Shown one piece after another: positions 53,789 through 58,842 of a DNA stretch of 64,000 bases (positions are counted from its first letter, which is position 1; each line of letters begins with the position of its first letter). The translations under genes and the position numbers were made by a program. Source of the DNA: Chloroflexota bacterium (GTDB taxonomy: Bacteria; Chloroflexota; UBA6077; FW602-bin22; JAMCVK01); contig JAMCVK010000045.1 of assembly GCA_023475225.1 (NCBI GenBank), positions 1-64,000 on the forward strand. The letters run 5' to 3'. The notes beneath the pieces are model-generated. The model saw only the letters and a list, made by a program, of their open reading frames with translations, ran no database searches and was not told the origin of the DNA.

Positions 53789-53887
53789 TGGCGGGGGTGC
53801 GTGGGAGTCGAACCCACCAGAGACACCCTGTAAGTACCTCCCAACGGTTTTGAAGACCGCGAGACCCACCGGGACCCATCCACCCCC
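53789..53887 (-). tRNA. selC: Selenocysteine tRNA (anticodon UCA)
   Basis: 99 bases with encoded CCA. Anticodon loop CTTCAAA gives UCA. The D stem has six pairs (GGGTCC/GGGTCT) with a CGGT loop, the variable arm is long (GAGGTAC/GTGTCTC stem), and the T arm is GTGGG TTCGACT CCCAC. The acceptor has seven clean pairs and a G-G mismatch at the eighth. These are the hallmarks of bacterial tRNA-Sec. Confidence 0.96.
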
Positions 53888-55023: not shown

Positions 55024-56772
55024 CTATCCCCCTTGAAGGTCGAACGATTTAGTAGCAGCAATCTGTTTGGCCAAATGAATGAAATCAGCGATGCTCAGCG
55101 GACCGATATTTTCCCCAGAACGCAAGCGGACCGCTATCGTTCCCGTGTCCACCTCCCTATCGCCTATAACCAACATATACGGTATCTTCTGCAGCTGTGC
55201 CTCTCGAATCTTGTAGTTCACTTTCTCTCGCCGTCCATCAACCTCCACCCGCAGCTCAGTCTTTCTTAGCCTGTCCGCAACAAGTTCGGCGTAGGCCAGG
55301 TGTCTGTCCGCGATGGGGATGACGACGGCCTGAATCGGGGCCAACCAAACGGGGAAGGCACCGGCGTAGTGCTCGACTAGCCCGGCCACAAAGCGCTCCA
55401 TAGATCCCAACACTGTCCTATGCACCATTACCGGACGATGTTCAGCCCCATCCTCCCCGATATAGACCACATCGAAGCGTTCAGCCAGGTTAAAGTCCAC
55501 CTGGATGGTAGGACCCTGCCAGGGGCGACCGAGCGCATCCCTCAATTTTATATCGATGGCCGGCCCATAGAACTTAGCTTCTCCTTCCATCCTCTTATAC
55601 TTCGATCCTTGCCGCTCTAGAGCATGGCGTAGGGCAGCCTCAGCGTGCTCCCACACCTCATCGCTGCCCATATACTTGGCCGAATCAGCCGCATCCCTAA
55701 CACTCAGCTCAAGGTCATAACTATCGTAGCCAAAGACTCTTGCCATAAAGAGGGCAAAGTCTAAAACACCAACAACCTCATCCTCTAACTGGTCGGGACG
55801 GCAGAAGATATGGGCATCGTCCTGGGTAAAGCCACGCACCCGCAATGCCCCATGGAGTACCCCCGACCTCTCGTAACGATAGACCGTCCCCAGCTCAGCC
55901 CAACGCAGCGGTAGATCGCGATAGCTGCGCAGCCTAGTCTTGTAAATAAGAATATGGAAGGGGCAATTCATCGGTTTTAGCAGGTACTCCTGTCCCTCGA
56001 TTTCCATGGGAGAATACATGTTGTCACGGTACCAATCCCAATGACCGCTCGTTTTCCACAGGTCGAGCTTACCGATATGAGGGGTATAGATAAGATCATA
56101 ACCCCGCTTGTGATGTTCAGCACGCCAGAAATCCTCGATGATCTCGCGTATCCGAGCGCCCTTAGGATGCCAATAAATCAACCCAGGGCCACCCTCCTCG
56201 TGGATGCTGAAGAGATCGAGCTCCCGTCCCAGGCGACGATGATCACGTCGCGCTGCCTCCTCGAGTCTCGCCAGATAGCCCTTTAGCTCCTCTTCCCTCA
56301 GAAAGACCGTGCCATAGATGCGTTGCAACATTGGTCGGCGCTCATCGCCTCGCCAGTATGCCCCAGCAATGCTAAGCAGTTTGAGGGGACCGATCTCGCT
56401 GGTCCGCTGGAGATGTGGTCCCCGACATAAATCAATGAAGTCGCCCTGCTGATAAATGCTTACCCTGGCATCCGGCAAACCCTCGAGTAGCTCAACTTTA
56501 TAGCTTTGTCCTCTCTCAGCAAAAAACTCTTTGGCCTCCTCTTTGCTCATCTCGCTGTGTATAAACAGTTTATCCGCGGCGATGATGGCAGCCATCCTCT
56601 CTTCGATTTTCGCTAAGTCCTCCGTGGTTAATGATCGTGGCAAGTCGAAGTCGTAATAGAAGCCATCCTCAATCGACGGACCAATGCCAAACTTGGCTTC
56701 CGGTATAAGCGATTGAACAGCCTCAGCCATCACATGGGCTGCCGAGTGTCTCATCGTTTCCAAATCAGCCAT
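55024..56772 (-). CDS. thrS: Threonyl-tRNA synthetase lacking the TGS domain
   Basis: About 582 residues from the ATG behind AAAGGAGG. Class II enzyme. It starts directly with the editing (SAD) domain (MRHSAAHVMAEAVQSLIPEA, IEDGFYYDFD), so the N-terminal TGS domain of most bacterial ThrRS is absent. Motif 2 (YRYERSGVLHGALRVRGFTQ), the zinc ligand Cys in LKPMNCPFHILIY, zinc His residues in the VLHGALRVRGFTQDDAH region and VMVHRTVLGSMERF (motif 3) and the anticodon-binding domain (LAPIQAVVIPIADRH) are intact. It is controlled by the T-box at 56798-57050. Confidence 0.95.
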   Translation of the reverse strand: MADLETMRHSAAHVMAEAVQSLIPEAKFGIGPSIEDGFYYDFDLPRSLTTEDLAKIEERMAAIIAADKLFIHSEMSKEEAKEFFAERGQSYKVELLEGLPDARVSIYQQGDFIDLCRGPHLQRTSEIGPLKLLSIAGAYWRGDERRPMLQRIYGTVFLREEELKGYLARLEEAARRDHRRLGRELDLFSIHEEGGPGLIYWHPKGARIREIIEDFWRAEHHKRGYDLIYTPHIGKLDLWKTSGHWDWYRDNMYSPMEIEGQEYLLKPMNCPFHILIYKTRLRSYRDLPLRWAELGTVYRYERSGVLHGALRVRGFTQDDAHIFCRPDQLEDEVVGVLDFALFMARVFGYDSYDLELSVRDAADSAKYMGSDEVWEHAEAALRHALERQGSKYKRMEGEAKFYGPAIDIKLRDALGRPWQGPTIQVDFNLAERFDVVYIGEDGAEHRPVMVHRTVLGSMERFVAGLVEHYAGAFPVWLAPIQAVVIPIADRHLAYAELVADRLRKTELRVEVDGRREKVNYKIREAQLQKIPYMLVIGDREVDTGTIAVRLRSGENIGPLSIADFIHLAKQIAATKSFDLQGG

Positions 56773-56797
56773 GGTCTTCCCTCCTTTTTTCCTCATC

Positions 56798-57050
56798 AAA
56801 AAACCTCTCGTCTATGGGACGAGAGGTTCACTCACGTGGTTCCACCCAAGTTTGCCAGACCAACCACCCGTGTCATCGAGTGTTGGGCTGACCTTTCCAG
56901 CCCGATAACGGCGGCTACCGCAGCCCTATACTAATTTCCAGGGCTGACTCCCAAGTGGTTTTCCCCGAGCCGGTTGCCGAGAGGACTCTCAGCCAACGAT
57001 CCCCTCTCTCTGGAGCCCCTCGCTCAGGTACTCGTCTTGATCAACGCTTT
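56798..57050 (-). promoter_or_regulatory. T-box riboswitch of thrS, specifier ACC (Thr)
   Basis: On the minus strand: stem I with AGACGAG and AGAGAGAGG motifs, specifier in GAAA-ACC-A-C (ACC at 56959-56957), T-box sequence TTGGGTGGAACCACG (56835-56847 core), and terminator AACCTCTCGTC/GACGAGAGGTT plus U-run (56798-56828). The bulge UGGA expects a tRNA whose base 73 is U. Uncharged tRNA-Thr would favour read-through into thrS. Confidence 0.9.
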
Positions 57051-57062
57051 TTCCCTATTCGG

Positions 57063-57136
57063 TGGGCAAGATAGGAGTCGAACCTACGACCTCAGCGATG
57101 TCAACGCTGCGCTCTAACCAGCTGAGCTACTTGCCC
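57063..57136 (-). tRNA. tRNA-Val(GAC)
   Basis: 74 bases; the terminal CCA is not encoded (ACC then G). Acceptor GGGCAAG/CTTGCCC, D stem with AGCTGGTTAGA loop, anticodon arm CAGCG TTGACAT CGCTG (GAC), T arm GTAGG TTCGACT CCTAT. It lies 13 bases upstream of the thrS T-box with no terminator between. Confidence 0.95.
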
Positions 57137-57261: not shown

Positions 57262-57573
57262 ATAATAAAATGGCGATGAAGAGGACGAGTAGATGGAGGG
57301 AAGGGTTACAGAGAACCGCACCGGCTGAGAAGCGGCACCTGGAAGACCACCGAAAATGACCTCGGAGCTGCAGGCCCAAAGGATGCCTTAATGGACATCT
57401 CAGTAGGTCGAGCCGGTTGTCTCTTGGTGAGACAAATAGTCCCCGTTAAAGGGCTGAAGTATCGGATCGGACTTGATCCCGTACTTAATGAGGTCATCAC
57501 CGCAAGGTGATGACGAATAAGGGTGGTACCACGAGATTCGCTCTCGTCCCTCTAGAGGGGCGAGAGACTTTTT
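57262..57573 (+). promoter_or_regulatory. T-box riboswitch of the thrC operon, specifier AUG (Met)
   Basis: Stem I with GACGAGTAGA, AGAGAACCG and the specifier loop GAAA-ATG-A-C (ATG at 57356-57358). Stem III is GTCATCACC/GGTGATGAC (57493-57514). The T-box AAGGGTGGTACCACG lies at 57519-57533. The terminator CTCTCGTCCCTC/GAGGGGCGAGAG plus TTTTTT lies at 57541-57573. The frame GAAA-NNN-A-C is identical to the thrS leader, where it reads ACC. The bulge UGGU expects A73. The reading as Met is an alignment-based inference; ACC one frame over is the alternative. Confidence 0.85.
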
Positions 57574-57600: not shown

Positions 57601-58842
57601 ATGGCCAGAATCAAGGGCTTAAAATGTAAAGAGTGCGGCGAGCTTTATCCCCTGGGGCCAATACACGTATGCGAGTATTGTTTCGGTCCCCTAGAAGTCG
57701 ATTATAACTACGCTGAGATAAAGAACCTCATCAGCCGGGAGAAGATAGCGGGCGGACCATCCTCTATCTGGCGCTATCGAGATTTATTACCTGTCGAAAG
57801 GGGCGAGGATGATTCGGTAAAAGTAGGCTTCACCCCCCTCCAGAGAGCAGATAACCTGGCCCGCGCCCTGGGGCTAAGGGAACTTTATGTCAAGAATGAT
57901 AGCGTTAACCCGACCTACTCCTTCAAGGACCGCGTCGTTGCCGTTGCCCTGGCCAAGGCTAAGGAATTTGGTTTCGACACCATCGCCTGCGCTTCAACCG
58001 GTAATTTAGCTAGCGCCGTAGCCGCCGCTGGAGCCAAAGCCGGGCTAAAAACCTATGTCTTCCTCCCGGCCGACGTCGAGAAAAGCAAGATCGTCAATGC
58101 GGCTATCTATGGGGCTACGTTGGTGGCCGTGGATGGTACCTACGACGAACTGAACCGCCTCTGCAGCGAAGTGGCCGATCGCTTTCACTGGGCCTTCTTT
58201 AACATCAATATCCGACCATATTACGCGGAAGGTTCGAAAACACTGGCCTTTGAGGTGGTCGAACAACTTCAATGGCAGGCTCCAGATCACGTAGTCGTGC
58301 CTATCGCCTCCGGATCCCTGCTCACCAAGGTGGCCAAGGGATTGCGCGAGTTGCAGCAGGTGGGGCTGATCGCCAATTACCAGACGCGCATCTCCGGTGC
58401 TCAGGCCGCTGGCTGCGGACCAGTGGCGGAGGCCTTTGCCACAGGTGCTGAGATCATCCATCCCGTCAGAAAACCGCAAACCATCGCCAAATCACTGGCT
58501 ATCGGCAACCCAGCAGATGGGCTCTACGCCCTGGAGATTGTCCGTCAGAGCGGAGGGTCTATAGAGGGCGTTACAGAGGAGGAGATCATCGAAGGAATCA
58601 AGTTACTGGCTCGCACAGAGGGCATCTTCACCGAAACAGCTGGCGGTGTCACGATTGGTGCTCTAAAAAGGCTTGTCGAGAAAGGCAAGATCGCACCCGA
58701 TGAGCGCACCATCGCCTACATCACCGGCAATGGCCTAAAGACGCCAGAGGCCGTAGTCGACCATATCGCCGCCCCACTCTTGGTTAAGCCCACGGTGGAA
58801 TCGTTCGATGAGATCGTCGGAAAACAGGCCCTGGCCGTTTGA
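57601..58842 (+). CDS. thrC: Threonine synthase-type PLP enzyme
   Basis: 413 residues with an N-terminal zinc ribbon (LKCKECGELYPLGPIHVCEYC) and a fold-type II PLP domain. The PLP lysine is in NPTYSFKDRVVAVAL near 107, the phosphate-binding loop in IASGSLLTKV near 236, and GGVTIGALKRL near 355. By family it converts O-phosphohomoserine to threonine. Its leader appears to sense methionine and a CysO-like sulfur carrier follows, so a role in sulfur transfer onto O-phosphohomoserine deserves consideration. SD AAGGAGG. Confidence 0.88.
   Translation: MARIKGLKCKECGELYPLGPIHVCEYCFGPLEVDYNYAEIKNLISREKIAGGPSSIWRYRDLLPVERGEDDSVKVGFTPLQRADNLARALGLRELYVKNDSVNPTYSFKDRVVAVALAKAKEFGFDTIACASTGNLASAVAAAGAKAGLKTYVFLPADVEKSKIVNAAIYGATLVAVDGTYDELNRLCSEVADRFHWAFFNINIRPYYAEGSKTLAFEVVEQLQWQAPDHVVVPIASGSLLTKVAKGLRELQQVGLIANYQTRISGAQAAGCGPVAEAFATGAEIIHPVRKPQTIAKSLAIGNPADGLYALEIVRQSGGSIEGVTEEEIIEGIKLLARTEGIFTETAGGVTIGALKRLVEKGKIAPDERTIAYITGNGLKTPEAVVDHIAAPLLVKPTVESFDEIVGKQALAV

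Follow-up and report, generated by a model that had tools for sequence, protein, structure and literature searches.

What does the tRNA gene on the minus strand of a 64 kb stretch of DNA (the window; 64,000 nucleotides) from an apparently uncultured Chloroflexota bacterium decode, and if it inserts selenocysteine (Sec), which gene contains the UGA codon? SerRS charges tRNA-Sec with serine; SelA then replaces the serine hydroxyl with selenium, using selenophosphate as the donor, and SelB brings Sec-tRNA to in-frame UGA codons with a SECIS hairpin behind them. We followed the tRNA gene from the window into the genome (50 contigs totalling 2.74 Mb; completeness 96.85%) and into 80 related genomes.

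The tRNA-Sec gene and its window

ARAGORN called a tRNA-SeC with anticodon TCA at exactly 53789-53887 on the minus strand (Table 1). Rfam model RF01852 scored the same interval at 72 bits (E 8.9e-13), above its gathering score of 47 and, in a search of the genome in which 150 of the 272 first-look candidates were scored, it was the sole match over the cut-off among the 13 matches listed. Both programs thus agree with the earlier note, which had identified tRNA-Sec by the anticodon UCA, the six-pair D stem and the long variable arm. Read from the sequence, the D stem GGGUCC/GGGUCU has six pairs, three of which are G-U.

Table 1. Parts of the tRNA-Sec gene in window coordinates
Feature	Position	Strand	Basis
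tRNA-Sec (selC), encoded CCA included	53789..53887	-	ARAGORN; Rfam RF01852, 72 bits
Anticodon UCA	53851..53853	-	ARAGORN anticodon position 35; sequence
Acceptor 5' strand GGGGGUGG; eighth base G opposes G at 53800	53880..53887	-	sequence; relatives compared
Acceptor 3' strand GCACCCCC; then discriminator G 53792, CCA 53791-53789	53793..53800	-	sequence
D arm: stem 6 pairs, loop 4 bases	53862..53877	-	Rfam alignment; sequence
Long variable arm, limits approximate	53818..53842	-	Rfam alignment; sequence
T arm, stem 5 pairs	53801..53817	-	sequence

The layout is 8/5, with eight residues on each acceptor strand and five pairs in the T stem, and the discriminator is G73. The anticodon, the six-pair D stem, the long variable arm, G73 and the eight bases per acceptor strand are all shared with bacterial tRNA-Sec as described by RF01852; what differs is the G-G at the eighth acceptor position, an opposition that relatives frequently have too. 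The known 12-pair variants of tRNA-Sec have seven residues between the T stem and G73 (PMC5330540, in excerpt), whereas there are eight here. Look-alike tRNAs of the selC type are on record (PMC7609411, in excerpt), and the gene could in principle encode such a tRNA for another amino acid, i.e. an allo-tRNA or a selC-like tRNA-Cys. The anticodon UCA, the six-pair D stem, G73 in place of the U73 of selC-like tRNA-Cys, and the presence of selA and selB in the genome make this exceedingly improbable. In total, we conclude that the gene is a genuine tRNA-Sec of the known system.

The G-G mismatch that had been claimed for the eighth acceptor pair is seen in the sequence; the Rfam alignment leaves one base unmatched at this position instead. 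We compared 30 tRNA-Sec loci, i.e. that of the window and 29 from relatives, drawn from the best-scoring of the 64 genomes with a match. The eighth opposition is non-standard in 16 of them (G-G in nine) and in seven of the eight from the same order, while two of the 14 cases counted as paired (L089 and L100) are doubtful since they were placed in a shifted register. Because non-standard oppositions are this frequent, the mismatch is best read as an ordinary trait common to the relatives and not as damage. They are common in these genes although a review names the long acceptor stem as the major determinant for SelB (PMC7609411, in excerpt).

As the earlier note had stated, the neighbours are not sel genes: an acyl-CoA dehydrogenase, a GYD-domain protein and a RodZ-like HTH protein adjoin. 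No TGA-containing selenoprotein candidate was accepted in the 64 kb window. A few kilobases away, the window contains two divergent T-box leaders (Rfam). The leader at 56812-57053 (-) precedes a threonyl-tRNA-synthetase-type gene at 55024-56799 (-), and the one at 57267-57554 (+) precedes a PALP-family gene at 57601-58842 (+) that is threonine-synthase-like in appearance. A tRNA-Val (GAC) gene, also on the minus strand (57061-57136), ends seven bases ahead of the synthetase leader and may, for this reason, share a transcript with it.

selA, selB and selD

The earlier note had staked its identification on the presence of selA and selB, and both were found next to each other on contig C14. SelA matches TIGR00474 at 589 bits (cut-off 267.9) and PF03841 with an E value of 2.5e-145, and SelB matches TIGR00475 at 371 bits (cut-off 242.25). 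Of 80 named SelB relatives, the first 18 comprise 17 titled Chloroflexi, Chloroflexota, Dehalococcoidia/-ales or Ktedonobacter and one from Thermalbibacter (Thermomicrobiota); those beyond the first 18 are mostly from other phyla. On this basis, the assembly probably belongs to the Chloroflexota.

The search for selD, which had also been proposed, gave nothing over the cut-off in the assembly (96.85% complete). Profile TIGR00476 gave three weak matches, of which the best scores 89.4 bits where 125 are required, and the SelD protein of a relative used as query led to the same three places. Two of these were rejected as HypE and ThiL, over their own cut-offs, and the third as an AIR-synthase-like protein that is nearest to ThiL/HypE but below both cut-offs. 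Synteny could not place the missing gene, as the surroundings of selD differ between families of the order. Similarly, the best match to MnmH in the genome remained below the cut-off (19.9 bits against 219.75).

Across 81 genomes (this one and 80 relatives), a strong SelA match was found in 66, SelD over the cut-off in 60 and tRNA-Sec in 64. In G034, G046, G062, G071 and G079, which have no strong SelA or SelD match, the tRNA-Sec match reaches merely 48-52 bits, and these are possibly other long-arm tRNAs. One genome of the same order, G007 (95% complete), likewise has SelA and tRNA-Sec and no selD over the cut-off. The missing selD, its absence over the cut-off also in G007 and the low MnmH score would fit a Sec trait in decay, in which selD is gone and the genes for tRNA-Sec, SelA and SelB persist as relics. 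However, the tRNA, SelA and SelB appear intact and, among the 47 SelA-containing genomes that are at least 90% complete, the two without SelD (this one and G007) match the 1.9 expected from incompleteness; for all 66 SelA-containing genomes, the figures are seven and 5.7. We consider decay improbable on these grounds. It is very improbable that selD is truly absent from this lineage and G007, with Sec made by SelA, SelB and tRNA-Sec from another source of activated selenium. Because two of 47 were observed with 1.9 expected, an assembly gap suffices to explain the missing selD and, as judged from these genomes, is most likely its cause.

In 54 of the 60 genomes with SelD, the SelD match contains one TGA and, in a TGA screen of a set of loci, SelD was the convincing group among the matches listed. 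In an earlier survey (PMC1794560, in excerpt), all Sec-decoding organisms without FdhA had a Sec-containing SelD, which hints that a Sec-SelD lies in the assembly gap here.

A candidate UGA codon in an SQR-like gene

Formate dehydrogenase, a suggested place to look for Sec, turned out to be of the Cys type without an inside stop in the genes found. The four molybdopterin proteins found align over positions 1-352 or 1-353 of PF00384 with no inside stop; two of the four are Fdh-alpha proteins over the NCBIfam cut-off, carry Cys (CARLCH and GELCH) and were rejected as Sec genes. We then took the candidates from a TGA scan of 1,227,844 bases (45% of the genome), which requires the TGA to be flanked by coding signal and followed by 20 or more codons, and so would miss Sec near the end of a protein. 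The scan listed 80 candidates, one of which stands out; on inspection by eye, the other 79 were judged to be noise or the TGA ends of adjacent genes.

The remaining candidate is an SQR-like gene on the minus strand (G000:C36:141387-142625, equal to L018 3388-4626), which encodes a flavoenzyme and has a TGA at codon 341. Under translation table 11 the protein stops at 340 amino acids, while read-through gives 413 amino acids with Sec341. The expectation that automatic calls would truncate genes using UGA as Sec thus has one good, predicted, candidate in the 45% scanned. The protein matches Pyr_redox_2 in Pfam (PF07992, 93.7 bits), and its best match in NCBIfam is NF049943, type III sulfide quinone reductase, selenoprotein subtype (246 bits, E 5e-73), a score that falls well short of the curated 525-bit cut-off. 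Approximately 1 kb upstream, the same strand encodes a 4Fe-4S protein, NrfD, a PhsA-like molybdopterin protein and a nitrate-reductase-delta-type chaperone; the SQR-like gene may have a role in sulfur metabolism.

Two short frames lie between this cluster and the SQR-like gene (L018 4600-5700, minus strand) and, read by eye, both end alike in 'NESLLDILKRRYA.GEI..EQFEEMK', a tail that we take to resemble the SHOCT type. PhsA-like molybdopterin proteins occur, together with FeS and membrane proteins, in two clusters at different places in the genome (L018 5671-10612 and L019 4159-9717, both on the minus strand); by eye, each cluster is accompanied by a sensor kinase and a response regulator.

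The 42 bases 3' of the UGA fold into a hairpin of 15 pairs with an energy of -19.2 kcal/mol and a three-base apex, GGU, at 19-21 bases downstream of the UGA. In the fdhF SECIS of E. coli, the GGU apex also starts 19 bases past the UGA and the lower stem also begins at base 3; by contrast, the stem sequence is another one, our apical loop has three bases, and the fdhF hairpin has an energy of -14.2 kcal/mol. Our hairpin agrees with the bSECIS constraints as quoted in PMC13188914 (in excerpt). As background, we used the long ORFs in the organism's own stretches, which contain 3027 Cys codons: 342 pass a loose bSECIS model, 154 of these also have G[G/U], six add at least 15 pairs and two add the energy as well. 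At the site itself, the model with G[G/U] is passed by all four related sequences with TGA, ours included, and by ten of 44 relatives with Cys, and the loose model by 16 of these 44. At the strict level, ours is the only hairpin among the four TGA sequences; of the Cys relatives, L236 (G080) alone matches it in strength, and its GG apex lies about as far downstream. Moreover, 36 of 200 dinucleotide shuffles fold as well (z -1.06), and by this measure the hairpin is unremarkable. In view of L236 and of the 16 Cys relatives that pass the loose model, part of the hairpin may stem from the conserved Gly-rich coding sequence. Altogether, the hairpin is supportive and not decisive; alone it is moderate evidence, and the position of the TGA on a shared Cys weighs more.

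Cys and TGA at codon 341

Codon 341 is covered by 48 of 52 aligned loci (our own and 51 others), and these have Cys in 44 cases and TGA in four, i.e. our own (motif DGYU) and those of G014, G016 and G161 (HTMU or HTTU). Ten homologue rows contained one inside TGA. Six of them were aligned, namely these four and L298 and L302, which carry Cys at the site despite an inside TGA elsewhere; the rows from G364, G394, G389 and G388 have no locus and stand outside the alignment. The inside TAGs of G042, G015 and G025 were set aside, as they are not at this site; the remaining rows with TAG or TAA have no locus. Conservation is similar on both sides of the TGA, with 219 of 324 residues identical to the nearest relative L282 before it and 45 of 71 after it. 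At the site, Cys (TGC) is found in G135, the nearest relative (67% identity), although SelA is present there; among 23 hand-picked genomes carrying SQR, SelA was found in 21. Finally, in an alignment with human SQOR chains, Cys156 and codon 341 each fall on a cysteine, the two being presumably the redox pair of that enzyme.

A single substitution turns TGC or TGT into TGA, and the TGA at codon 341 could be a base-call error. The tRNA could then be real while the TGA is a nonsense mutation or a sequencing error and the true targets lie elsewhere, e.g. in a Sec-SelD. The TGC of the nearest relative, the Cys relative with an equally strong hairpin and the weak z-score of the shuffles are in line with this. 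Against it, the TGA sits precisely on a Cys common to 44 of 48 sequences, the codons downstream stay conserved, a hairpin with GGU at the spacing of fdhF follows, and the genome has SelA and SelB. A false TGA is therefore unlikely.

Instead, we favour, with a probability of about 80% and on the strength of the comparisons above, the reading that the tRNA is the selC of a working Sec-decoding system. The established route of SerRS, SelA and SelB would act here with this tRNA-Sec, UGA codon 341 of the SQR-like gene would be read as Sec, and selD would be located in an assembly gap. Sec341 and Cys156 would form the redox pair of the enzyme, which would be predicted to oxidize sulfide with reduction of quinone.

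The three other loci with TGA at this site, L239 (G014), L244 (G016) and L305 (G161), form another Sec-SQR group, which belongs to the same phylum. They score 242, 238 and 253 bits against NF049943, all below 525, and the nearest Cys relative scores 216. A Sec-SQR subtype with the motif HxxU is tabulated in the review PMC13188914 (in excerpt) and credited there to the deep-Sep paper PMC12013277, which, in the part available to us, names two Desulfosediminicola strains; a table column on whether other bacteria that use Sec have Sec homologues is marked 'Yes'. The HTMU/HTTU group shares HxxU with this published subtype, yet remains below the NF049943 cut-off, while our protein differs in the motif as well, with DGYU in place of HxxU.

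When the 46 longer sequences (42 with Cys and four with Sec; the founding sequences of NF049943 are not among them) are placed in a tree, two changes of the Sec label are needed, and none of 200 bootstrap trees unites the four Sec sequences. No second Sec member of our SQR subclade was seen among the 48 sequences covering codon 341, and the part of the open-licence literature consulted, outside which most subscription journals fall, gave no report of Sec in this subclade. Thus, the Sec of our protein is apparently separate from that of the HTMU/HTTU group and would represent an independent change from Cys to Sec; it is probably also separate from the published Sec-SQR subtype.

In total, a lone tRNA call leads to a concrete statement, namely that standard gene calling truncates an SQR-like enzyme at the residue presumed to be catalytic. 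If this is true, SQR-like enzymes acquired Sec at one and the same active-site position at least twice, suggesting that selenium is of benefit there.
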